From positions 1 through 64,000 of the forward strand of contig JAUNNF010000004.1 of NCBI GenBank assembly GCA_030537355.1: a stretch of DNA of 64,000 nt, given 5' to 3'. This DNA is from Coriobacteriia bacterium. Lineage in GTDB: Bacteria > Actinomycetota > Coriobacteriia > Coriobacteriales > Eggerthellaceae. Each line of letters opens with the position of its first letter. The first letter of the stretch is position 1. The translations under genes were made by a program, and so were the position numbers. This document shows positions 9,945-56,518 of this stretch, in pieces. Below the pieces are notes generated by a model. That model ran no database searches and was not told where the DNA came from. It was given only the letters and a program-made list of their open reading frames with translations.

Positions 9945-10670
9945 ATGAGCAAAATAAAAACATTTAAAATATACCTAGAGCAAACTCAAGTTAACGGTAA
10001 AAAAAGATACTTTTATACAGTAAAAATAGGTATTCGAGCAGCCCTAGCGCATTTTAGAGATTGTCTTGATAGTTTTAAAGATAAAAAAATTTGTGGCTGC
10101 TCTTTGGTTAAATATGTGCCTTCGTTATACCGAGAGACAAAAGGCTCAACTGGAACCCAGGCATCGAAGTATTTTGCTTTGGATAAAATCTTTGAAAATC
10201 AAAAATTTAGTGCAAATGATAAGTTTGTTGATATTGGATGTGGAAAAGCACGTGTATTGGCGCATTTAATTGATAAAAATTTTCCTGGAAAATTATATGG
10301 TATTGAAATTAATCACGATGTGGCAGAGTTTGCAAAAGCCTGGACAGTCAAATATCACAATATTACTATAATAGAAGGTGATGTATTTGAGCACGATTTA
10401 GATACATACAATATCTTCTTTCTGGGAAGACCTTTTGAAACTGAATATTTTATTAAGTTTATAGACAAATTTGAAAAAGAAATCACTCGCCCTGTAAAGT
10501 TCTTTTATTGGTGGGATAACCAGTCTGGAAATTATTTAGATAATAGACCTGGATGGAAACTAAACAAGAGATCATTTATATACAGAAATAAAATTCTATA
10601 TGTATCACCTTTTCCGCAAAGATATTCTATTTGGACATATACACCATCGAGAAAAAATGGTGGAGCATAG
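9945..10670 (+). CDS. Class I SAM-dependent methyltransferase
   Basis: This 241-aa protein has SAM-binding motif I (FVDIGCGKARVL, about residues 97-108), an acidic second strand (YGIEINHDVAEF) and a short post-III loop. The substrate is unknown. Its last codons, encoding NGGA and the stop, lie inside the 48-bp attL repeat, so the gene's 3' end overlaps the 3' end of the tRNA-Ala target. In an uninfected chromosome this gene and tRNA-Ala would therefore converge and overlap. Confidence 0.8.
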   Translation: MSKIKTFKIYLEQTQVNGKKRYFYTVKIGIRAALAHFRDCLDSFKDKKICGCSLVKYVPSLYRETKGSTGTQASKYFALDKIFENQKFSANDKFVDIGCGKARVLAHLIDKNFPGKLYGIEINHDVAEFAKAWTVKYHNITIIEGDVFEHDLDTYNIFFLGRPFETEYFIKFIDKFEKEITRPVKFFYWWDNQSGNYLDNRPGWKLNKRSFIYRNKILYVSPFPQRYSIWTYTPSRKNGGA

Positions 10671-10702
10671 GGGGCTCGAACCCCTGACCTCAGGCTTGCA
10701 AA
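10655..10702. other. Prophage attachment site attL
   Basis: A 48-bp stretch (starting AAATGGTGGAGCATAG, ending GGCTTGCAAA) is identical to positions 46860-46907. It equals the 3' half of tRNA-Ala, from the anticodon loop to beyond the CCA end. It marks the left boundary of the prophage. Confidence 0.95.
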
Positions 10703-10824
10703 TGCAAGAGGCATAATCAGGCATAACACCTCATAAACAAGCAAATTTCTTGCAAGCATTAACTAATATTGCATAAATGCAATACTAATATCTAGCAGGG
10801 ATGACAATCCTTTAAAAATACAGA

Positions 10825-10842
10825 TGTCACCAACTTGTCACC
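10825..10842. repeat. Integrase arm-type site candidate, left arm
   Basis: Two direct copies of TGTCACC start at 10825 and 10836 (11 bp apart) within GATGTCACCAACTTGTCACC. A nearly identical pair sits at 46783-46799 near attR. Paired short repeats on both sides of an att core fit binding sites for the integrase N-terminal domain. Confidence 0.6.
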
Positions 10843-10845
10843 ACC

Positions 10846-10920
10846 TGGAAGCGGAGACGGGAATCGAACCCGTGACCTCTTGGTTATGAGCCAAGTGAGC
10901 TACCTCTGCTCTACTCCGCG
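10846..10920 (-). tRNA. Prophage-encoded tRNA-Met(CAT), initiator-like
   Basis: A complete 75-nt cloverleaf with encoded CCA can be drawn: acceptor CGCGGAG/CTCCGCT, D stem GAGC/GCTC, anticodon stem CTTGG/CCAAG around CTCATAA, and T stem ACGGG/CCCGT with TTCGATT. Position 1 cannot pair with position 72 (C1 x T72), and the CGCGG start resembles initiator tRNAs. The 29-31 stem is TGG rather than the canonical GGG. A CAT anticodon could also belong to tRNA-Ile2. It lies inside the prophage, between attL and the first phage gene. Confidence 0.88.
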
Positions 10921-10946
10921 GTATTATACACTAAACTCTTAATATA

Positions 10947-11216
10947 TTAAGAGTTTTTGGTTCTTTTGTGCTTCGCTCTTGACTTTGGTACATTTTTCTG
11001 CATTACATCTTTAATATCATCGAATAATCCTATTAGTTCAGAAATCTGTGCTATACACATATACAAGGCATCAATGTTCTTCTCATTGTGTTCATCAGAA
11101 ACTTCTAGTGTTCCTTTGAAAAACCGCAATTCGATAATAAAAAAGATTAAAGAAAAAATTAAGCACAAGAAAGCACCAATTACCATAATCATTGATATAA
11201 ATATTGCTTGATCCAT
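10947..11216 (-). CDS. Small phage membrane protein
   Basis: This 89-aa protein has one long hydrophobic segment (about residues 5-30), an acidic helical middle and a basic tail. It is the last gene of the late operon, next to attL, a position often held by lysis genes, so a holin-like or spanin-like role is possible. No family is recognised. Confidence 0.6.
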   Translation of the reverse strand: MDQAIFISMIMVIGAFLCLIFSLIFFIIELRFFKGTLEVSDEHNEKNIDALYMCIAQISELIGLFDDIKDVMQKNVPKSRAKHKRTKNS

Positions 11217-11222
11217 AATAAC

Positions 11223-11597
11223 CTACTTATTCTCGCCCACAATGTAGTTATATTCTTCTTGGGTAATAGCACCACGTTCTAAAAGCTTGTTTACGCGATC
11301 TAGATCCCAGAGACCATTTTCATAATAAAATTTATATTTTTCAATTGTTTCAGACCAATTTTTGTCATTACCTTTAACTTCGGCAATAAAATCTTCATCT
11401 TTTGCAAGTAAATAATCTAAATCTGCTTGCATCTTTATAAGAACGCCTTCAACTACACCCCAGTCTTCAGCTTTTATTTTATACTCTAGGTAATTCCAGC
11501 CATTTTCGCCTTGTACTAGATTTTTTCTAATAAAAGTACAAGATTCAGTTTTTTCGATTAATGCTGGTCTGTTGTCTGATTGTGATTTTTGCCACAT
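11223..11597 (-). CDS. XkdX-like small tail-region protein
   Basis: This 124-aa protein ends with GLWDLDRV followed by ITQEEYNYIVGE, which resembles the C-terminus of XkdX-family proteins from Gram-positive siphovirus tail operons. Its ATG lies 40 nt inside the reverse transcriptase gene, so the two are probably translationally coupled. It is acidic and does not look like the basic DGR accessory protein Avd. Confidence 0.6.
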   Translation of the reverse strand: MWQKSQSDNRPALIEKTESCTFIRKNLVQGENGWNYLEYKIKAEDWGVVEGVLIKMQADLDYLLAKDEDFIAEVKGNDKNWSETIEKYKFYYENGLWDLDRVNKLLERGAITQEEYNYIVGENK

Positions 11598-12658
11598 CTT
11601 AGCCTCCTATCATATCTACTTATCTTCTTTCTAATTGCTCTTTTAGAACAATATGGTTTTACCCATTTTTGATAATTGTTATAGACATTGGCATGCTTTG
11701 TCCATCCTGCAAAGCTCATAAATTGTCGAGCAGTAAAGATATTTGCACCTTTTTTATTAATAGCTCGAGCTTTACGTGAAAGTCTATATAGTAAGTTTTT
11801 ACGTAAGGTAACTCTATTTCTATAAAATCTAAAACCCATAAAATCTAAGGAATAATCATCCTCAATACCTAGCCTATTGATAAGCCAGTTTGGTTTAAGC
11901 TCTAGATCTAATTTTTCTCTTAAGTATTTACCTACAGCTTTTGCGATTTTGAAAAGCTTACGTTTATTGCTATCTAGCACTATCATGTCATCCATATAAC
12001 GCATATAGTATCTAGCATGCAACTCTTCTTTAATATAATGGTCAAGTGCCGTTAAATAAAAGTTAGCATACCATTGACTTGTATAAAAACCTAAAGGTAT
12101 GCCACGCGTTATTATTTCACCATCACATCTAACATCTACGAAGCTACATAAAACCGCTAAAAATTTTTTATCTTTGATAATTTTGGTTAGTTTTGCTTTT
12201 AAAATATCATGATTCACGTTTTCAAAATATTTACGAATATCCATCTTCAGATAGTATTTAGTACCCTTGTAATCATTTTTAATCCATTTTTCAAGATACT
12301 TACGTCCACTGACGCATCCACGTTCAGGAATCGAACCATTAACGTGTCTATACATTGGCTTCATAAATATTGGCGAAACAACGTTCATAGCCATATGATG
12401 CAATATTTGCTCTCTACGTTTTGGCCTTATAATCTTGCGAATTTTTCCACATGATCCATCTTTGATATATTTAGACGTATGATCTTCTATAACACCTTTA
12501 AGAGCATAATTACGAGCATTTATAATGGCCTGCTTTGGATTATTGTTAAATAACCTTGTATGCTTATCGTCTTTAGAATTTAAGGCGTAATCATGATATG
12601 CAAGTATAATGTTCTCATCTGATAGAAATTTACGCCACAAGTCATTATATGACTTCAA
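11558..12658 (-). CDS. Diversity-generating retroelement reverse transcriptase
   Basis: This 366-aa RT has the catalytic aspartates in KMDIRKYF (D140) and YMDD (221-224, D223/D224). It also has IPLGFYTSQ at 187-195, matching the LGxxxSQ form of motif 4 typical of DGR reverse transcriptases. There is no maturase or endonuclease domain as in group II introns, and no msr-msd RNA as in retrons. It lies just downstream of a template repeat whose partner is in the adjacent variable protein gene. Known DGR RTs copy TR RNA with adenine-specific errors and return the cDNA to the VR. No Avd accessory gene is recognisable nearby. Confidence 0.95.
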   Translation of the reverse strand: MKSYNDLWRKFLSDENIILAYHDYALNSKDDKHTRLFNNNPKQAIINARNYALKGVIEDHTSKYIKDGSCGKIRKIIRPKRREQILHHMAMNVVSPIFMKPMYRHVNGSIPERGCVSGRKYLEKWIKNDYKGTKYYLKMDIRKYFENVNHDILKAKLTKIIKDKKFLAVLCSFVDVRCDGEIITRGIPLGFYTSQWYANFYLTALDHYIKEELHARYYMRYMDDMIVLDSNKRKLFKIAKAVGKYLREKLDLELKPNWLINRLGIEDDYSLDFMGFRFYRNRVTLRKNLLYRLSRKARAINKKGANIFTARQFMSFAGWTKHANVYNNYQKWVKPYCSKRAIRKKISRYDRRLRCGKNHNQTTDQH

Positions 12659-12767
12659 TTCTTATCCTCTCACTCGCTGTCGGCTGCTACCTACTGGCGA
12701 GGCTTGCTACGAGATAATTTCAACATTCCGCCAGGAAGAGCAATCACATTAAAATAAACGATAAGCT

Positions 12768-12871
12768 AGGCAGGCACCATAGTTCCAATTCGAATTCGAA
12801 AACGCATTGTTCAGGTTCAGGGCGAACGCACCACAATTCAAACCGTTGTTGCACGCACCACCGTGAATCGC
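12768..12871 (-). repeat. DGR template repeat (TR)
   Basis: This 104-nt segment aligns without gaps to the VR at 13003-13106. Ninety-five positions are identical, and the nine differences all fall at adenines of the TR coding strand (T on the plus strand). The TR has 21 adenines, clustered as nine AAY codons when read in the VR frame; none of the other 83 positions differ. It lies between the target gene and the RT gene in the same orientation, in a 319-nt stretch with no ORF. Confidence 0.97.
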
Positions 12872-12931
12872 TGGACAAAACAGCACCCCACGTGATTGCA
12901 ATCCCTTATCTTTTATTAATTATATACTATT

Positions 12932-12951
12932 GAGGGGAGGGATCTCCCCTC
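12932..12951 (-). other. DGR target-site stem-loop downstream of VR
   Basis: GAGGGGAG and CTCCCCTC form a perfect 8-bp stem around a 4-nt loop, 26 nt past the target gene's stop codon and 51 nt past the VR end. Hairpins with this stem and loop size just after the VR are known to stimulate retrohoming in other DGRs. It lacks a clear U-run on the minus strand, so it is not a typical terminator. Confidence 0.75.
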
Positions 12952-12977
12952 TTGTTCGCTTACGCTCACAATTCACC

Positions 12978-14576
12978 CTACCTAACAAGTGGCTTGCAAG
13001 AAAGGCAGGCACCATAGTTCCAATTCGAACGCGAAAACGCATAGTTCAGGTCCAGGGCGAACGCACCACAAACCAAACCGCCGTTGCACGCACCACCGTG
13101 AAGCGCATACATATTCGCGCCATTATAAGCATAATCACACTCGTAAGTAGTAGCAGAGCCACCAGCCGAGCTTGGCAACATAGATTCATTAGCACCGTCT
13201 AGCTTTGTTATATAGCCATTAGGTACACCTACAGCAGGCTCTAAGTAGCCTGAGCCATTTGAATTATAACCTGTTCCTGTAGAACCATCAGCTGTAGAAT
13301 ACGTAAGCTTCATTTTGTATCTTTTAGAAGCGTCAGAAACTAGACCTTGAAATCTACGCCACTGATTTCCCCACCAGTTCTCTATACCAAATACTTTAAC
13401 ACCAGTAGCAGTATGATCGGCATCAGCACCCCAGAACAAGCCTTTGGTGTCCATTGTGCCAGGATTTAATAGATTAGCAGCAGAACTACCGCCTGTATAA
13501 TGACCGTAGCCATAAACATCTTGAGTATTGAGATTTTTACCCATTAATATTAATAGGTAATTAATCATATCAACGTCACATTTAACTTCAGTGTTCCATT
13601 CAATTTCAGATGCTGTAATATTATTTAATCTAGCACGATCTAACTCTGTTTGACCTGATTGCTGATAACCAATAGAAGTACCTGAAATAGAGCGCATCCT
13701 GTTGTTAGAATCATAAGATCCATTATATGCTGCAATGTAGCAGAAATCCATTTCGTTTCCGTTCATATCTAAGAATGGATAGCATTTGAAATCATTGTCA
13801 GCTTTATATGCAGCAATATATACACTAAAGCTGTTGTTGTCGTCTTCATCAGGAACTACCTTAATATAAAACTTAGGAAACTCAATCATTAAGTTTCCAT
13901 CATAATTAAGATTGTTATAGTCAGAAGGTGTTCCGTCAAGCTTTTTACTATAATCATTTGGATTTACATAATAATCACGAGTTCCGTTACGTTTAACCAT
14001 ACATGGCTTACCAAAGAAAAACGCATCTTCCCAAGAACCATAATTGAATATACCAGTTTGAAAATCCATATGTGCTGGTGTTGCACCAATTGCATCCAAT
14101 AGATAGGTTACTGCTTGAGCAGGGTCTGCTTCCGAACCATTAACATGAAATCCGTAAATACCTGGTCTATCAAAGTATTTCATTTTTAGATCAATGTCAC
14201 CACCGACACCTGTAATATGCTCATTAAATGGTGCAGAACAACCAGAAACATTTGAACAAATAATCGTATATTCATTTCCAACGGGCAAAGATATGTCGAT
14301 CGGTACACCGTTATATTCATATGTACCATAAACCGCATGATCTTTATCTTTCTTGATAGTTACTGTTGCGCCTGTAATCGGTGTTTCTTGAGCATTGTTA
14401 ATAACTAATTCAAGATGCAAAAGACAAGTTAATTGATATTTAGTAAGGTCAATTCTGGCTTTTTTATCTTGGCCTAAAACACTCTCACCATTAACTAAAA
14501 CATCGTCAACGTTGCCTCCGCCACCACTACCGCCACCCATCGCAGCGGCAAGTGCTAAAGCTTCTTCTGCATTCAT
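12978..14576 (-). CDS. DGR variable protein: phage tail-tip/receptor-binding protein with C-type-lectin-like end
   Basis: This 532-aa protein has a glycine-rich N-terminus followed by an appendage-type segment (VDDVLVNGESVLGQ), a middle structural part, and a C-terminal region rich in G, W, N and Y (ENWWGNQWRRFQG, ALHGGACNGG) typical of CLec/FGE-fold DGR targets. The VR encodes residues 491-525. Residues that differ from the TR-encoded version are L492 (TR Ile), G499, V502, D509, Y512 and R516 (all TR Asn). The last codons after the VR are fixed (SCKPLVR). Its start overlaps the stop of the upstream tail gene. It probably displays the ligand-binding surface at the tail tip. Confidence 0.93.
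   Translation of the reverse strand: MNAEEALALAAAMGGGSGGGGNVDDVLVNGESVLGQDKKARIDLTKYQLTCLLHLELVINNAQETPITGATVTIKKDKDHAVYGTYEYNGVPIDISLPVGNEYTIICSNVSGCSAPFNEHITGVGGDIDLKMKYFDRPGIYGFHVNGSEADPAQAVTYLLDAIGATPAHMDFQTGIFNYGSWEDAFFFGKPCMVKRNGTRDYYVNPNDYSKKLDGTPSDYNNLNYDGNLMIEFPKFYIKVVPDEDDNNSFSVYIAAYKADNDFKCYPFLDMNGNEMDFCYIAAYNGSYDSNNRMRSISGTSIGYQQSGQTELDRARLNNITASEIEWNTEVKCDVDMINYLLILMGKNLNTQDVYGYGHYTGGSSAANLLNPGTMDTKGLFWGADADHTATGVKVFGIENWWGNQWRRFQGLVSDASKRYKMKLTYSTADGSTGTGYNSNGSGYLEPAVGVPNGYITKLDGANESMLPSSAGGSATTYECDYAYNGANMYALHGGACNGGLVCGAFALDLNYAFSRSNWNYGACLSCKPLVR
13003..13106 (-). repeat. DGR variable repeat (VR)
   Basis: The VR lies at the 3' end of the tail-tip gene. Codon changes relative to the TR are ATT to CTT, AAC to GGC, AAT to GTT, AAC to GAC, AAT to TAT and AAT to CGT. 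The conserved 27-nt 3' part with no changes (13003-13029) is the likely initiation-of-mutagenic-homing region. Homology ends sharply at 13106. Confidence 0.97.
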
Positions 14577-15574
14577 TATTTACCCCCTTTATTTTCAGGC
14601 GTAATAAACGCAATATCATATGCATAATAATGATCTTCGCTTGGCTGTTCACCATTTGCTACAGCCATTAACTTGTAGGAATCTGTCATATTAAGTTGCT
14701 GATTAGAATATTCTTCATAATTGTATGTCTCACCACTTAATGAACCTAAATAGAAGTCTGCTGTTTCGTCATCTGCAGCCAAATCATCTAAATACCATTC
14801 TTCAGATGTCTTATCAGAAGCATCAAGTGTTATTGTGCGTGCAGTCTGATCTATTTCAAAATCAATTTCTTCGTGGCCTTCACCCTCTACATTATTTGAA
14901 GCTTTTCCGCCAGTAATTTGAGGTTGAGGTGTAATTTCAGCTTGAATTTTAATAATAGCACCATATTCAAGATCATCTTCTCCAGAAGCTTCTGCTCTTT
15001 GTCTAACAAACAATTCAATTTCATCATGTAAGTCAACATCAAATGTCACATCTGTTTGTTTTACACCATTGACATATGCATCAAAATCATAACCACTCAG
15101 TGAACTATCATAAGAAACTGAAATCTCATAATCTCCAGCATCTTCTTCATATATTGCTGCTGCATTAACTGCATTATAAACAGGAACATTATAATTTTCT
15201 GTATCGATAGTACGCTGTTCTGTACCATCCTGTGTCAAAGTAAAAGTATTACTATCTTCGCCAGAAAGTTCGTTTACAGGGTTTTGTAATGTCGGGGTTA
15301 CTTCTGCGGAACCAAACTCAACCCATCTACTTTTAGAACGATACATAATTTTTTTAGTGTCTAGAATAAGGATTAATGAACCGAAAGCAATTTTTTTACC
15401 ATAATAAGTATCAGGCAAGTATGCAGAACTTAATGCTTTACCAAAAATTTCAAAAACCTTTTTTCCTTTAATTTGATAGTTATACTCTTCGAGAATAACA
15501 AGATATTCCTGATCTTGTAAATAAACAGCATCCTTTTTACCGTATTTCAGTTTGTTTTTCTTAAATAGCCCCAT
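14576..15574 (-). CDS. Phage tail/baseplate appendage protein
   Basis: This 332-aa protein has an N-terminal lysine-rich segment (MGLFKKNKLKYGKKD) and a long acidic, beta-rich region with Ig-like character (EDAGDYEISVSYD, YVNGVKQTD). No catalytic motif is seen. It overlaps the start of the DGR target gene, so the two are probably co-translated; it may be the scaffold or connector holding the variable protein. The family is not recognised. Confidence 0.65.
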   Translation of the reverse strand: MGLFKKNKLKYGKKDAVYLQDQEYLVILEEYNYQIKGKKVFEIFGKALSSAYLPDTYYGKKIAFGSLILILDTKKIMYRSKSRWVEFGSAEVTPTLQNPVNELSGEDSNTFTLTQDGTEQRTIDTENYNVPVYNAVNAAAIYEEDAGDYEISVSYDSSLSGYDFDAYVNGVKQTDVTFDVDLHDEIELFVRQRAEASGEDDLEYGAIIKIQAEITPQPQITGGKASNNVEGEGHEEIDFEIDQTARTITLDASDKTSEEWYLDDLAADDETADFYLGSLSGETYNYEEYSNQQLNMTDSYKLMAVANGEQPSEDHYYAYDIAFITPENKGGK

Positions 15575-15584
15575 TGGTTTCCTC

Positions 15585-15920
15585 CTAATCTTTTTTTATA
15601 TTTAGTGCTTTATATCTTTCATGCAAACTATCTATATGCGAATTTCCTTCGAGATCATGATAGCTTTCATATAGATCATCAATTGATTTAGCTTCAGTAG
15701 GCCTAATATGTCCTCGATCTAGACATTCTGTCATCCTATTTTCAAGCTTTTCTCCAGTTATGTGCCGTAGAGCACGTGACATGATTTCTATCTTCTCAAC
15801 TAAAGCTTTAAAAAATGAACAGCCTTTCTTAATATAGGCAACAACAAAGCCTAGAGCTCCAATACAGACAGCATCGATAATTGCCGATAAAGTATGTTGC
15901 AGATCAAACGAAAATTCCAT
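15585..15920 (-). CDS. Phage membrane protein, holin candidate
   Basis: This 111-aa protein has one hydrophobic segment (IIDAVCIGALGFVVAYI, about residues 13-30) and a charged soluble C-terminus with the DLYESYHDLEGNSHIDSLHE-type pattern seen in holin-associated proteins of Gram-positive phages. It lies among tail genes and no endolysin follows. Holin function is an inference from size and topology. Confidence 0.55.
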   Translation of the reverse strand: MEFSFDLQHTLSAIIDAVCIGALGFVVAYIKKGCSFFKALVEKIEIMSRALRHITGEKLENRMTECLDRGHIRPTEAKSIDDLYESYHDLEGNSHIDSLHERYKALNIKKD

Positions 15921-15928
15921 ACTATCAC

Positions 15929-16546
15929 CTACTTATTCTCCTCGAGTATTCTCCTTACGTCTTCACGTAACTCTTCTGGTACATCTTCGAGGGTAATTTC
16001 TCCACGAATTATTCTGCGGGCATATGCCTTACATATAGCCTTACTATTGGCATTTTTATTTTTCATTTCTTCAGGGATTAGTTCGTATAAGTCACAGATA
16101 GCATTATCTGTATCGTCTTCAAAGTCAGGCAATTCATTTAATAATTCCTGATTTTTTCGTTTTCTTTCTATTTCTTTATCGTGTTTTTCTTTTAGTCTTT
16201 TGTGTTCTAAAATTTCTGCAGGAGTATAAACATGATAAATTTGTATTTGCTCAACCTGTTTATTTTCTGCTTCTTTAGACCATCCTTCAAATCCTGTTGC
16301 CTCAACTTCTTTGTACACACCATTATTATCGGCAAAAAGCCATTTTCCTTTTTCGGGTGTTGATTTTTCTTCATTAATTGTTTTAACAACAGAACCATTA
16401 TCTAATACATGTGAATCATAGACAATGTTTTCTGGCTGCAATAATTTATATGTAATTATATTATCCTGCTCAGAATTCTTTAAACAACCTTTTGTTAAGT
16501 CAGGATTTTGAATTTCTAATCCCGTTTTTTCATCAAAAATTCTCAT
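15929..16546 (-). CDS. Phage tail-region protein of unknown function
   Basis: This 205-aa protein has an N-terminal beta-rich part, then a charged helical segment rich in K/E (about 105-135), and an acidic C-terminus. It joins end to end with the collar-domain gene upstream. It could be a tail-fibre assembly or chaperone-type protein, but no family is recognised. Confidence 0.6.
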   Translation of the reverse strand: MRIFDEKTGLEIQNPDLTKGCLKNSEQDNIITYKLLQPENIVYDSHVLDNGSVVKTINEEKSTPEKGKWLFADNNGVYKEVEATGFEGWSKEAENKQVEQIQIYHVYTPAEILEHKRLKEKHDKEIERKRKNQELLNELPDFEDDTDNAICDLYELIPEEMKNKNANSKAICKAYARRIIRGEITLEDVPEELREDVRRILEENK

Positions 16547-17610
16547 TAGCTATCCCTCCTAAACATTGCAAGATTCTTCACTCTAGGTAATATATTGATT
16601 GCTTGTCCTCCACCTGTCTGAGTTGTATGCCACATCTGACCAAACCAGTGGCCAGGATATTCATGTCCAGAATTTTGTCCAACACCAATACCAGAACCAG
16701 GACCTGGAGTAACAAAATCCTTACCAGGACCAGGCGTAAAATTATGTGTGTGAGGAGCAAGTTGATTTACGTTTAACGTTAACGAATCTGAACCAAAGTA
16801 TCCTATTGGCGTACCCGCTCTAATAACAGCATTTTTAACTTCACTCCATTGTGATCCAACAATAAAATTCCATGGACATCTTGAATCTTGACTGGTAATA
16901 TCAGTAATAACATCACTAAAGAAAAACGATCCTACAGGGTATAATTTATTGTTGACAATATCAGTAATCTGGTTCTGTAAAAATCCAGCTGTTGTGTCAT
17001 CAAGTGCAGACTTGATTAAATCAAAGTTTTTTGTTATTACATCTCTCATTTGATCGTAAAGACCAGTAGTATCAAAAGCTTGAAGAGGCAAACTTTCGCC
17101 GCAACGTTCTGTTTTTAACCTAGTATCATTAATAAACTGTTGTTCTACTACAGTGCTTGCAGAAGGAATATATATATCTGCTATACCTAGATCATATTGT
17201 TGTGCTGTTCTTACAAGAGGAGGTATTGTAGGTGTTTGTGCTGGTGTTCCTTTAATGTATACTGGTTCTATACATCTTTTATTTGCTGTTACATCAAGCC
17301 TTAATGCAATTGTATCTATTCTTGGTAAACTCGAATCAGCAGCATCTATTTCTACCGTTACAAGCTCATCGTTATATCCTCTAATTCCGTTAATAAAACA
17401 ATAACCTGGATTAATAGTTACATATCTAGAAGCTGGGGATGTCTGCAACACCTGGCAACTTGTGCTGTCTATAAGCATAACAATACCATTACCTCTGTCA
17501 ATTTTGTATAAATTTTGAAGAAAATCAGCTCCTACAGCCCTATCATAAATCGGCTGACCGTGCTCATCTTCTTCTACATTACTTGTAAATGGAAAACCTA
17601 TAAAAGCCAT
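16546..17610 (-). CDS. Phage tail-fibre/baseplate protein with collar-like domain
   Basis: This 354-aa protein has an N-terminal half that resembles baseplate upper proteins (VTINPGYCFINGIRGY, NDTRLKTERCG). The C-terminus contains PVGSFFFSD and APHTHNFTPGPG, which match phage tail collar domains with the conserved HTH metal-binding pattern. It follows the Gp37-like gene by 1 bp and is probably part of the adsorption device. Confidence 0.8.
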   Translation of the reverse strand: MAFIGFPFTSNVEEDEHGQPIYDRAVGADFLQNLYKIDRGNGIVMLIDSTSCQVLQTSPASRYVTINPGYCFINGIRGYNDELVTVEIDAADSSLPRIDTIALRLDVTANKRCIEPVYIKGTPAQTPTIPPLVRTAQQYDLGIADIYIPSASTVVEQQFINDTRLKTERCGESLPLQAFDTTGLYDQMRDVITKNFDLIKSALDDTTAGFLQNQITDIVNNKLYPVGSFFFSDVITDITSQDSRCPWNFIVGSQWSEVKNAVIRAGTPIGYFGSDSLTLNVNQLAPHTHNFTPGPGKDFVTPGPGSGIGVGQNSGHEYPGHWFGQMWHTTQTGGGQAINILPRVKNLAMFRRDS

Positions 17611-45708: not shown

Positions 45709-46767
45709 ATGGCTAGATCATCTTTTGGATATATACAAAAATTACCCAATAAGACTTATAGGGTATTCTGGAGTGACAATGGTAAACGATGCTCTAAACG
45801 ATTAAAAACATATAAACAAGCCACGGAACATTTAGCAAAAATGAGACTAAGAGCAGGCCAATGTGATTATGATATTACATACTACAAATACTATAAAGGT
45901 GTTGTAGAAACAACCTATAAAGAGCTGTCACCAAACACAATAAACGAATATAAGACAGCATGGAATACATTAGAACCAAAAATAGGTCATCTAAGAATTT
46001 GTGATACAAACTGGAGATTAGTCCAAAATACTATAAATAGCTATAAGTCATGGACAAGACAATTTAGAGCTTTAAAGCTTTGGCGTAAAATAATTAATCT
46101 TGCAATGCGGGATGACATAATTAATAGCAACCCTACAAGTGATATTAAGCTCACAAAGCCAAAAAAGGTTGATAAAAAGCTTTATTCTAAAAAAGAGCTA
46201 ATTGAAGTATTAGAGCAGATCCGCGGAACACGATATGGGCTTGCTGTACTTATGATGTGTATATGCGGATTACGATTAGAAGAGTACTGTGGATTAAATT
46301 ATAGAGACTTTGATTTTGGAGAAGAAGGTTGGGTCTATGTTAGCGTTAATCAAGCCGTTACAAGTGTTAATGGTACAAAAGTACTTAAAGACGTTAAAAC
46401 AGCCACCAGTAAGCGTACAGTGGCTCTGCATAGAGATTTTCGCAACTATTTAAGCGAACATGAACAATATATGAAGAACAAAAGAACATTAAAAGAATAC
46501 TTATGTCCTCAAAGCTTTAATCGGAATTATAGGAAATGGTGTAATAATCACAATGTTCACTATATGCCAATGGGATATATGCGAAGTGTTTACGCAACAC
46601 TTTCTGCGGAAGCAGGATGTATAGACAGTGTTGTTTCAAAATCTATGGGGCATACTGGAAATGATATACGAGAACGTAATTATATGAGCGTTACAATGCA
46701 AATGCTTAAGCTTAACGCAACACAATTAGCTGAATACATTGACTATGACGATATGAGGGATTTCTAA
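45709..46767 (+). CDS. Tyrosine recombinase integrase
   Basis: This 352-aa protein has the catalytic R189 (CGLRLEEY), K235, R292, H315 (SMGHTG) and Y325 (RERNYMS). The expected HxxR box II histidine is replaced (MGYMR, position 289 is Gly). The N-terminus resembles an arm-binding and SAM-like core domain. It lies next to attR and the tRNA-Ala target, and its start overlaps the upstream stop. Confidence 0.92.
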   Translation: MARSSFGYIQKLPNKTYRVFWSDNGKRCSKRLKTYKQATEHLAKMRLRAGQCDYDITYYKYYKGVVETTYKELSPNTINEYKTAWNTLEPKIGHLRICDTNWRLVQNTINSYKSWTRQFRALKLWRKIINLAMRDDIINSNPTSDIKLTKPKKVDKKLYSKKELIEVLEQIRGTRYGLAVLMMCICGLRLEEYCGLNYRDFDFGEEGWVYVSVNQAVTSVNGTKVLKDVKTATSKRTVALHRDFRNYLSEHEQYMKNKRTLKEYLCPQSFNRNYRKWCNNHNVHYMPMGYMRSVYATLSAEAGCIDSVVSKSMGHTGNDIRERNYMSVTMQMLKLNATQLAEYIDYDDMRDF

Positions 46768-46859: not shown

Positions 46860-46907
46860 AAATGGTGGAGCATAGGGGGCTCGAACCCCTGACCTCAGGC
46901 TTGCAAA
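46860..46907. other. Prophage attachment site attR
   Basis: This is the 48-bp repeat identical to 10655-10702. It includes the 3' half of tRNA-Ala. The complete tRNA is restored on this side. Confidence 0.95.
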
Positions 46908-46938
46908 GCCCGCGCTCTCCCAACTGAGCTAATGCCCC
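46863..46938 (-). tRNA. tRNA-Ala(TGC)
   Basis: This 76-nt cloverleaf with encoded CCA has acceptor GGGGCAT/ATGCTCC, anticodon loop TTTGCAA and T loop TTCGAGC. It is the integration target of the prophage. Confidence 0.97.
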
Positions 46939-52757: not shown

Positions 52758-53387
52758 ATGGAAAAAACAAAAAATAGTTTTAAACACAAACTTGGAATTG
52801 CAATTGGTATTATTTTATGCGTTATCTGTATACCAATTATCATAATCAATTCATTTATAATCATTCAGGGCTTGGTAAATCCAAACCAAGTTCCAAGTAT
52901 AGGAAACACTTCCCCATTAGTAGTTTTAACAGATTCTATGTATCCTACTATTGAAGGCGGAGATTTAATTTTAGTTGACAAAACTAATCCAGAGGGCATT
53001 CAGCAAGGTGATATCATTTCATATTTTGATCCGGCATCAACTAATGAAAGCGCCGTTGTTACCCACCGTGTTACAAAAGTAACAAATGAAAATGGACAGT
53101 TAGCTTTTGCTACAAAAGGTGATGCAAATACTGGCGATGATAAAATGAATGTGCCTGCCAATAAGCTAGTAGGAAAATATAATGGTTCACGTTATGCTGG
53201 TATTGGTAATTTTTGCATGTGGATGAAGAGTGTTCCTGGCATCATAGTATGTGTAGGTATTCCATTAATTCTTCTTGTTGGTTATGACATTATCAGACGT
53301 AGAATGTATGCTAAAAAACAAGAGAAAACTGAGCAAGACTTACGTGCAGAATTAGATGCTCTAAAAAAAGAAAAAGCTAATTCTTAA
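52758..53387 (+). CDS. SipW-type signal peptidase I
   Basis: This 209-aa protein has N- and C-terminal transmembrane helices, catalytic S60 in LTDSMYPT and H103 in VVTHRV, and the KGDAN motif of the archaeal/ER-type (Ser-His) signal peptidases. SipW homologues process TasA/CalY-type fibre proteins, several of which follow here. Confidence 0.9.
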   Translation: MEKTKNSFKHKLGIAIGIILCVICIPIIIINSFIIIQGLVNPNQVPSIGNTSPLVVLTDSMYPTIEGGDLILVDKTNPEGIQQGDIISYFDPASTNESAVVTHRVTKVTNENGQLAFATKGDANTGDDKMNVPANKLVGKYNGSRYAGIGNFCMWMKSVPGIIVCVGIPLILLVGYDIIRRRMYAKKQEKTEQDLRAELDALKKEKANS

Positions 53388-53421
53388 TTTAAGCTAATCA
53401 CAATTTATTGTATAATTAACT

Positions 53422-54156
53422 ATGCCTATGAATAATATTAAACAATATAGATTAAGTATTGTACTTTTAACTATTGGTATTGCATCTGTAGTATTAATGC
53501 TCATTACTACATTTTTTGCATTTACGCAATTTAAAGGTGATAATCCTGATAAAAATATTATTGAGATTCACTCTCCTGTTGCCAAATATGACGATACCAC
53601 AAACATTCAAGCCAACTTTGATGTACCTGTATTTTCTGCTGAATATTACAAGGACGGCAACATAATTATCAAAAGCGAAAATGGCGATAAAGTTGTAGCT
53701 CCAGGTGCCGAAGGCAACGGCAACTTTTCTCTTAAAAACGTAAGCTCTTACAAAGTAAATTGCGATTGTGAATTTATAGGAGACAACAGCAAAAACCTAC
53801 CTATAAGTTGCGCACTTCAAGATAATACTGGTGCATATATTATTGGAAGTAAAACAGATTATGTAGAGGTTTCTAAATTAAACGAGGCACATAAATCATA
53901 TACTTTAGAACCAAGTGAAGTTGTTACTTTTAGCCTCCCCTGGAAATGGATATCTAGAGATGACATTAGCGATACCACATTTGGCAACGACTCAAAAATA
54001 AATATAAGCGTTGGAATCAGTACAAATGTTGAAATTGTTCCTGAAGAACAAGCTAATTCAAACTTTACAAACTTTTTACCTTGGATTTTTGCAATTGTTG
54101 CTATTATATGTATAGGCGCCGGAATTGGCACATATATAAGAAGGCACAGACAATGA
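53422..54156 (+). CDS. Membrane-anchored SipW-cluster protein
   Basis: This 244-aa protein has one N-terminal (SIVLLTIGIASVVLMLITTF) and one C-terminal (FLPWIFAIVAIICIGAGIG) membrane helix with a beta-rich extracellular middle. It might be an accessory or anchor for surface fibres. No firm family. Confidence 0.65.
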   Translation: MPMNNIKQYRLSIVLLTIGIASVVLMLITTFFAFTQFKGDNPDKNIIEIHSPVAKYDDTTNIQANFDVPVFSAEYYKDGNIIIKSENGDKVVAPGAEGNGNFSLKNVSSYKVNCDCEFIGDNSKNLPISCALQDNTGAYIIGSKTDYVEVSKLNEAHKSYTLEPSEVVTFSLPWKWISRDDISDTTFGNDSKINISVGISTNVEIVPEEQANSNFTNFLPWIFAIVAIICIGAGIGTYIRRHRQ

Positions 54157-54713
54157 AGCTAGCAAAAACACTAAGATATATCGTTTTAGTATTGTTAATA
54201 CTTGTTGTACTGTCATCTCTTGCAACAACAGGTATATTTGCAAAATTTACATCTTCTGGCACAGGCAACGATTCGGCCCGTGTTGCTAAATGGAGTGTTG
54301 ATGTAACTGACGAGTTGTCACCACAAACAGGACAAACTATATCAAAATCAATTGATCCAAGTAGCCCTAAAGAGAAATTCGGATTCACTGCTACAAACAC
54401 TAAAAACGGAGCTATATGCGAGACATTAACTAAATATGGAGTTACAGTTAACGTTGGACAAACACTCCCACAAGGTGTTAGCATATATATTAATCCAGAT
54501 ATTAACGATGATCCTTCAACTAGGATTCAAGGCACACCTGATCCGTCTAATCCAAATATTATCAAATTTGCAAATACAAATTGGCAATTTCAACCAGCTG
54601 TAAGTTCAAGTCAAACATTATATCTGTTCTTTGTAATGGACTCATCATGTACAGCAACAGCCACTATTTCTGATATTAGCGTTGTAGTTAATTACGAGCA
54701 AGCACAAAGCTAA
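54153..54713 (+). CDS. TasA/camelysin-like SipW substrate
   Basis: This 186-aa protein (from MKLAKTLRY; ATG overlaps the upstream TGA) has a SipW-type signal (LATTGIFAKFTSSGTGNDSA) with ARVAKW. It should be a secreted fibre protein like TasA/CalY. It sits between two signal peptidase genes. Confidence 0.82.
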   Translation: MKLAKTLRYIVLVLLILVVLSSLATTGIFAKFTSSGTGNDSARVAKWSVDVTDELSPQTGQTISKSIDPSSPKEKFGFTATNTKNGAICETLTKYGVTVNVGQTLPQGVSIYINPDINDDPSTRIQGTPDPSNPNIIKFANTNWQFQPAVSSSQTLYLFFVMDSSCTATATISDISVVVNYEQAQS

Positions 54714-54715
54714 TC

Positions 54716-55261
54716 ATGAAGCGTAAACCAAAAATTCTGCGTATTATCCTGCTTGCCATCATATCATGCGTAATAGGTATAGCCATATACAATATAAACG
54801 CCAAAATGCTACTCAGAGACTCTTATCCTATGATAGAAGGCTTTGCTACAAATGTAATATTAAGCGGTAGTATGGAACCAGAGTTGTCCGTAGATGACAT
54901 GATTGTAGTCCATGAACAAGACAGCTACAATACAGATGATATTGTAGTGTTTATTGACAAAGGCAATGTGCCTGTTGCCCACCGCATTATATCCATAGAC
55001 GATTCAAACAACGTCACAACAAAAGGAGACGCCAACAATACCCCAGACAAAGCATTTGACGCAAAAAACATCAAAGGCAAAGTAATATTCAAAATACCCA
55101 AGCTTGGAATTTTCATAAATGACTACACAAAGATAGGTCTTGTTGTTCTTGTAGTAATCCTGCTTGTTATTTCATTTATCCGCGAAGCCAAAGGCAGAGA
55201 TAAAGACAAAGATAAAATCAAATCTTTACAAGACGAGATTAATCGATTAAAACAGCAATAA
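54716..55261 (+). CDS. Second SipW-type signal peptidase
   Basis: This 181-aa protein has S52 in LSGSMEPE and H89 in VAHRI, with KGDANNTPD and a C-terminal transmembrane helix. It is diverged from the first copy, so each may process a separate substrate. Confidence 0.88.
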   Translation: MKRKPKILRIILLAIISCVIGIAIYNINAKMLLRDSYPMIEGFATNVILSGSMEPELSVDDMIVVHEQDSYNTDDIVVFIDKGNVPVAHRIISIDDSNNVTTKGDANNTPDKAFDAKNIKGKVIFKIPKLGIFINDYTKIGLVVLVVILLVISFIREAKGRDKDKDKIKSLQDEINRLKQQ

Positions 55262-55681
55262 TTACTTATTGTTCTGAACCTCAGAATCTTTTGCCCAAAC
55301 AGCATATAGCGTTATACTACTAGGAGCTATATTTTGTCCTTTATATAACTGTCCAGCAACGTATTGTTGAGCTGTTGAGGATTGGCTAGTTGCCCAGCCT
55401 AAAAATTTATAGCCAGTGCGTGTTGGCACCACATTTGTTATTGAATAAGCACTTGGTGTAATACTTTCTTCTAAAACGTTTTTGCCACTATCAAAAACAC
55501 CGCCATTAGCGTCATAAGTTACTGCAGCAGTGCTTTGCTTAATCTCAAGAGAAACATTATTTGGTGTACTTACATTACTAGCATATTTGGAATTAACAAA
55601 ACAAGTATATACTACAACAGTTAATATAATTGTTAATACGACTATAATTACGTTTATGTATTTACTTAAAAATGTTTTAAT
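55262..55681 (-). CDS. InlB-repeat secreted protein with non-standard (ATT) start
   Basis: A continuous 139-codon frame encodes a signal-like helix (YINVIIVVLTIILTVVVY), then AVTYDANGGVF, TRTGYKFLGWATS and ITLYAVWA, a clear InlB (Listeria-Bacteroides) repeat. It contains no ATG, GTG or TTG near its 5' end. An ATT at 55679-55681 sits 6 nt after GGAG. It could be a rare ATT start or a gene that lost its start by mutation. Confidence 0.7.
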   Translation of the reverse strand: MKTFLSKYINVIIVVLTIILTVVVYTCFVNSKYASNVSTPNNVSLEIKQSTAAVTYDANGGVFDSGKNVLEESITPSAYSITNVVPTRTGYKFLGWATSQSSTAQQYVAGQLYKGQNIAPSSITLYAVWAKDSEVQNNK

Positions 55682-55753
55682 TGTACACTCCAGTTTTATA
55701 CAGATATTATATTGTAAATCAATTGCTGTGTAAACTTTCTTTTACGTCTATAT

Positions 55754-55788
55754 AAAAATTACTCGAAGGGCCATATCCTCCGAGTAAT
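55754..55788 (-). terminator. Terminator after the TasA-like gene
   Basis: ATTACTCG and CGAGTAAT pair with a partly paired interior, followed on the minus strand by TTTTT. It lies about 40 nt after the stop of the TasA-like gene at 55826. Confidence 0.75.
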
Positions 55789-55825
55789 ATATTAATACGT
55801 TCATAAAGTCAATAAGCCGTAAGAC

Positions 55826-56518
55826 TTATGGAGCTTTTGGATCAGTATTAATTTGATCTACAGAAACTTTCATGTCTAACTTAATTGTGTTAACGTTAGC
55901 TGTAGTATCATTGCCTAATGCAGTATCTTTTGTATTGTCAGCATCAAATGGCCATTCCCATAAAAGACTTGCATCCAAGGTTGGTGCAGTTCCTGGTTCA
56001 TACTTACCTTCTAAAGTTTCCAAATAATCGTTAATAGCTTGTTCTAATTGCGCTACAGTCGTAATTGTTGTACCATCTTGTTGAATTTTAGAACCATCTT
56101 TTTTAGTGAAGACAAGAGGACAATAATCACCAGTCCAAGTACCTAATGTAACAACTTTACCACCCGAAGTAGCTGGATCAATAGTTACATGTGTAGCAAC
56201 TTCTGGAGTACCTGTTACTTGAACAGCAAGCAAGCTTCCTTTTGTGCCAGGAGCTACAACTTTGGCATCACTCTCACCTTTTACGATAATAGCATCTGTA
56301 GATGATGTAGATTTTTCTCCACCTACTTTATAAGCATTAGCAAATGCGTTACCTGTAGCAATTAAGGTAATTCCCCACTTGGCAACTCGAGCTGAATCTG
56401 TACCAGTCTCAGAAGTTGTATACTTAGCAAAAGTACCTGCAAGGCCAATCATGCTAACAAGAGCAACTACGGCCATAATTACTCCAATTCGCATCATTTT
56501 ATTTTTTGTCTGTGTCAT
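55826..56518 (-). CDS. TasA/camelysin-like SipW substrate
   Basis: This 230-aa protein has a signal (VVALVSMIGLAGTFAKYTTS, ETGTDSARVAKWG) very like that of the protein at 54153. The mature part is Thr/Ala/Gly-rich with a beta-sandwich feel (GSLLAVQVTGTPEV). It is a probable major surface-fibre protein with its own terminator and long leader. Confidence 0.82.
   Translation of the reverse strand: MTQTKNKMMRIGVIMAVVALVSMIGLAGTFAKYTTSETGTDSARVAKWGITLIATGNAFANAYKVGGEKSTSSTDAIIVKGESDAKVVAPGTKGSLLAVQVTGTPEVATHVTIDPATSGGKVVTLGTWTGDYCPLVFTKKDGSKIQQDGTTITTVAQLEQAINDYLETLEGKYEPGTAPTLDASLLWEWPFDADNTKDTALGNDTTANVNTIKLDMKVSVDQINTDPKAP

Follow-up and report, generated by a model that had tools for sequence, protein, structure and literature searches.

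The window, by which we mean the whole 64,000-nt stretch of DNA analysed here, carries on its minus strand a cassette that we interpret, with a probability of about 0.96, as a diversity-generating retroelement (DGR) of a temperate siphophage that rewrites the variable repeat (VR) of a tail-protein gene. The hallmarks by which a DGR can be recognised in sequence were found wherever they could be tested.

The template repeat (TR) occupies positions 12768..12871 of the minus strand and is present in a single copy in the genome. The VR (13003..13106, minus strand) starts at codon 491 of the target gene. Re-aligned on the minus strand, the two match over 104 nt with no gaps and differ at nine positions, exactly as the initial annotation had described. 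All nine mismatches fall on TR adenines (5 A>G, 2 A>C, 2 A>T; 21 A in the TR), and 83/83 non-adenine positions are the same in the VR, again in agreement with the original description; the hypergeometric chance of 9/9 mismatches falling on 21 adenines of 104 positions is 1.07e-7. From TR to VR, six codons change, all six non-synonymously: ATT>CTT in codon 492 (I>L), AAC>GGC in codon 499 (N>G), AAT>GTT in codon 502 (N>V), AAC>GAC in codon 509 (N>D), AAT>TAT in codon 512 (N>Y), and AAT>CGT in codon 516 (N>R). These are the five AAY codons and one ATT codon named before. The pair is the best direct repeat within the surrounding 9 kb, with a length of about 109 nt, and on the TR side the similarity extends to about 12763. 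Given the re-alignment, the low chance probability, the codon placement, and the strength of the repeat, the description of the TR and VR is right, coordinates included, and the pattern is not due to chance. A genome scan for remote VRs found none; the whole genome has one TR and one VR.

The VR ends ∼8 codons upstream of the target stop. At the ends of both repeats, a block without mutations is followed by a region in which the TR and VR sequences diverge, a pattern that would fit candidate IMH and IMH* elements at the 3' ends. Two inverted repeats are located 3' of the VR on the minus strand. An imperfect one, TTGT-GA-GC(GTAA)GC-GA-ACAA, at 12952..12971, is a candidate target-site hairpin or cruciform, and a perfect 8-bp one, GAGGGGAG(ATCC)CTCCCCTC, at 12932..12951, is a second candidate hairpin. 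The predicted DNA fold of 12900-13010 beats 197/200 shuffles (z -2.6). BPP-1 needs a hairpin/cruciform downstream of the VR (PMC3240598), and the two inverted repeats of 12932-12971 would fit a structure of that type. Among the relatives described below, an inverted repeat at most 90 nt from the VR was found in 92/96 loci with the window counted, a figure that comes without a chance rate.

The reverse transcriptase (RT) gene (11558..12658, minus strand) encodes 366 aa and matches RVT_1 (E 7e-16) and phrog_1423 (E 2.4e-82). It starts with TTG, preceded by the ribosome-binding site GAGAGG, and a TTG start is found at the same site in relatives, e.g., L003, L005, and L092. The motifs IPLGFYTSQ (LGxxxSQ) and YMDD line up with those of BPP-1 Brt, and alignment with Brt also reveals a C-terminal extension common to the clade. 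The solved structures closest to the protein form the set 8ub7-8ube (E 1.5e-22), which we take to be the BPP-1 DGR RT complexes. Hence, the earlier claim that an RT with YMDD and LGxxxSQ motifs follows the repeats was borne out. The genome has just one other RT, encoded on contig 10 and distant from the DGR RT.

The target gene (12978..14576, minus strand) encodes a tail protein of 532 aa, assigned to phrog_5302 (PHROG E 6.4e-77). The AlphaFold2 model of this protein, computed from an alignment of 55 target proteins with L133, a phage-record row, omitted, has a mean pLDDT of 85.7, exceeding 90 across most of residues 141-530. A CnaB-like beta-sandwich is predicted at N-terminal residues 48-138, and a C-type-lectin-like domain at about residues 188-529. 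The best Foldseek match of the model in PDB was TaqVP, the DGR variable protein of Thermus aquaticus (5vf4), which shares the predicted fold and differs in its N-terminal part. In VIA-align, residues 188-529 matched TaqVP with Z 24.9 across 261 residues and 16% identity; Mtd gave Z 11.8, and formylglycine-generating-enzyme folds ranked next. Matches to pilin and CnaB folds were confined to the N-terminal domain. Because of the TaqVP and Mtd matches, the suggestion of a C-type-lectin-like target is supported at the level of the predicted fold. As the genes ahead of the target gene encode the tape measure, Dit, a tail protein resembling Gp37, and other structural proteins, the target is likely a tail-tip or receptor-binding protein, its place in the virion being deduced from this gene order.

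Using the RT as the query, we fetched 80 loci on viral contigs (IMG/VR) and 42 on genome contigs, many of them from rumen or gut Lachnospiraceae and other Clostridia. The closest RT among them is ∼50% identical to that of the window. When the fetched loci were scanned for repeats without supervision, most proved to have an adenine-specific pair adjoining the RT. A second scan, in which TR adenines had to account for 80% or more of the mismatches, retained 96 loci: the window, Butyrivibrio phage Arawn, and 94 relatives. In the kept loci, 1512/2529 TR adenines were changed vs. 50/8272 other positions, a ratio that is descriptive, since the scan filtered for the adenine bias. At least 90 relatives have the VR-TR-RT layout with adenine-specific differences. 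The target with its VR comes first, followed by the TR and then the RT, and the VR of most loci stops a few codons short of the target stop.

The initial annotation had proposed comparing VRs among carriers of this prophage. A search for the same TR/VR in 60 related genomes found none, and the adenine-masked VR pattern had no match in viral contigs. Separately, the conservation of A4 was too low for its use as a degenerate DNA query. The comparison was run among relatives whose RT regions are almost the same, and there the prediction held: the TR was constant, and the VR differed almost only at TR adenines. In the pair L114/L115, with the RT region 100% identical and no differences in the TR, the VR differed at 14/24 TR adenines and at 0/86 other positions. 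The respective values were 15/28 and 0/84 for L003/L004, 18/27 and 1/88 for L063/L064, and 14/23 and 0/90 for L051/L052. In L054/L055 and L122/L123, the TR differs too, and pairs without any difference probably represent the same phage or contig. These sequence comparisons argue strongly for natural activity of the DGRs of this clade, and from them we infer that the window copy rewrites its VR as well. Separately, in L118 (4011-4588) the target end is tandemly duplicated (297 nt, about 97% identical), which suggests one TR serving two VRs.

Between the TR and the RT lies a structured RNA of 106 nt (12660..12765, minus strand), similar to RT-18 and delineated with the covariance model R1 and covariation. 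R1, built from relatives only with the window left out, assigned 55.3 bits (E 2.9e-8) to the window spacer, the runner-up in the region having 13.0 bits. In 38 relatives, 97.5% of cells in the structure are paired, with 133 double-sided changes vs. 37 in shuffles, and the structure is lost when the alignment is slid by one column. The predicted structure is comprised of a long hairpin of 7 pairs, six of them with double changes, a 4-bp hairpin whose loop is mostly NCUU, a helix of CUC with GAG, and a closing helix in which the TR end (CUUAUC) pairs with GAUAAG right before the RT start. The closing helix has little covariation support, as it is almost invariant; it also falls outside the Rfam RT-18 model (RF03021). 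The TR-RT spacer reached the RT-18 gathering score in 9/10 tested relatives. The window spacer did not reach it, yielding only RT-4 (17.6 bits, E 3.1), and the Rfam scan of the window at the gathering score returned tRNAs only. In the window, the first hairpin, the most conserved one of the clade, is altered. A single-sequence fold of the TR with the spacer was no stabler than shuffles (z +1.6); the structure is visible only via covariation in relatives. On this comparative evidence, the window spacer is a divergent member of the clade of RT-18-kind RNAs. The ribosome-binding site of the RT falls within its 3' end, so the RNA could control how the RT is translated. In BPP-1, RT-Avd is recruited by the spacer, which primes cDNA from an internal adenine (PMC12875486); by analogy, the window RNA may have a similar role.

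Taken together, these elements suggest the following mechanism. The tail operon transcript would span the TR region as well as the spacer RNA, and the latter would be bound by the RT. Copying of the TR by the RT would be error-prone at adenines, and the cDNA so mutated would home to the tail-protein gene, replacing the VR at its 3' end. The face of the C-type-lectin domain would therefore change at a few codons, mainly AAY, with the scaffold and the TR remaining constant, and the phage could sample new receptors via the altered tail protein.

The cassette is part of a prophage of about 36.2 kb, measured from att to att. The 48-bp exact att repeat corresponds to a segment within the 3' part of tRNA-Ala(TGC): the copy at the DGR-side end is at 10655..10702, and the one at the integrase end, at 46860..46907, overlaps tRNA-Ala at 46863-46938. 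The integrase gene is located at 45709..46767 on the plus strand (phrog_1, E 2.4e-34). The prophage further has genes for a repressor, replication, terminase, portal, protease, capsid, connector, tape, and tail. A tRNA-Met(CAT) gene (10846-10920) also belongs to the prophage, with the DGR operon on one side of it and the att site on the other. The initial annotation had described the prophage as looking otherwise intact. The att repeats and the packaging, head, tail, replication, repressor, and integrase modules agree with this, but neither an endolysin nor a holin could be recognised in the ORFs tested (late region 10703-17610), leaving the intactness unproven. In relatives such as L001 and phage Arawn, lysis genes are located 3' of the RT; in the window, the lysis cassette is either missing or unrecognised.

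This raises the alternative that the element is a DGR by descent which no longer works, its VR having been rewritten in the past and its prophage now decaying. The lack of recognised lysis genes, the divergent spacer hairpin, and the absence of an Avd gene from the prophage would fit such a history, as would the VR changes at 9/21 adenines, below the family mean of about 60%. Still, a decaying element has to be reconciled with non-adenine positions of the TR and VR that are identical throughout, an open RT frame with all motifs, an open target ORF, and a prophage retaining its modules and both att sites. We consider loss of function unlikely and retain the reading of a DGR probably capable of rewriting its target.

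The claim that the full DGR core is present needs one qualification: the TR, VR, RT, and target each pass independent tests, but no Avd gene was found. The Avd profile (PF05635) has no match throughout the prophage, although a very divergent Avd could escape it. BPP-1 needs Avd (PMC12875486), and HRDC and MSL are known as accessory alternatives (PMC10053308). When compared with the fetched loci, BPP-1 Avd matched just L126 and L130, and weakly; both are outlying, distant DGR loci with a possible Avd-like protein. When the ORFs flanking the RT were clustered, no widely conserved gene emerged besides a small protein and the lysis genes. Our tentative explanation, which we put somewhat below even odds, is that the clade functions with neither Avd nor another dedicated accessory, and that the RT-18-like spacer RNA does the work of Avd, perhaps together with the C-terminal extension of the RT.

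Alternatively, the small protein could be a dedicated DGR accessory replacing Avd. In the window, this is a 124-aa product (11223..11597, minus strand) whose gene overlaps the RT 3' end by 40 nt and in which the small protein is fused to an XkdX domain; in relatives, the two are encoded by separate genes. Its association with the RT is tight: it occurs in 56/63 eligible clade loci, mostly overlapping the RT end, all 12 loci (12/12) that match its profile at E 1e-5 or better adjoin a DGR RT, and phage records matching the profile likewise have it beside a DGR RT. A relaxed search, however, found weaker homologues in L153 and L154 directly 3' of a target homologue (E 1.2e-19 and 3.5e-50, respectively), with no RT in roughly 3.2 kb of sequence examined. 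As these loci pair the two genes without an RT, the small protein seems to follow the tail gene, with the DGR cassette inserted between them. The fusion to a phage domain, XkdX, also speaks against a dedicated accessory, which we regard as improbable; a tail-module partner is the better reading of the 11223-11597 protein.

An ordinary recent duplication of a gene end beside an unrelated retron- or group II-type RT, to which the NCBIfam best match by name (group II RT, far under the cut-off) might point, has practically no chance of being correct: it is refuted by the adenine-only mismatches, the layout and adenine specificity kept in relatives, and the VR variation between close relatives, and the structures closest to the RT are those of the BPP-1 set.

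The DGR of Bordetella phage BPP-1 (mtd/avd/TR/brt) has a tail receptor-binding target of the C-type-lectin type, as is predicted for the window, with the VR at its 3' end. It also shares with the window an inverted repeat after the VR (PMC3240598), the TR, spacer, and RT in this order on the same strand, and adenine-specific differences. Unlike BPP-1, the window has no avd between the target and the TR, its target is closer to TaqVP than to Mtd, its spacer RNA is different, and its RT is distant apart from the common motifs. Butyrivibrio phages Arawn, Idris, and Closwp03 share with the window a homologous target, the VR-TR-RT order, and the small protein and XkdX gene 3' of the RT, although their RTs are about 46% identical to the window RT across 73% of the length. 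Faecalibacterium prophage DGRs, from gut Clostridia, similarly combine a TR, VR, and RT in temperate phages, but several of them have two VRs (PMC11792537), compared with one in the window.

Surveys already contain very many DGRs, including clades in which nearly all DGRs belong to phages of abundant gut bacteria; the adenine bias and a C-type-lectin target are near-universal (PMC8144416). The window DGR is real, well explained, and ordinary, and adds little alone. Of modest extra interest is the clade, as it has a conserved RNA and almost every member yielded no Avd, its compact cassette consisting of the target, the TR, the conserved RNA, and one RT. Should this cassette prove active, it could serve as a minimal DGR with which to probe the purpose of Avd, and laboratory work on targeted protein diversification could start from a smaller system.

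Outside the prophage, two further loci of the window were noted by eye. The ORF at 41-553 resembles a REP-associated (Y1-type) transposase, and the region 52758-56518 has two signal-peptidase-like ORFs and small TasA/camelysin-like secreted proteins.
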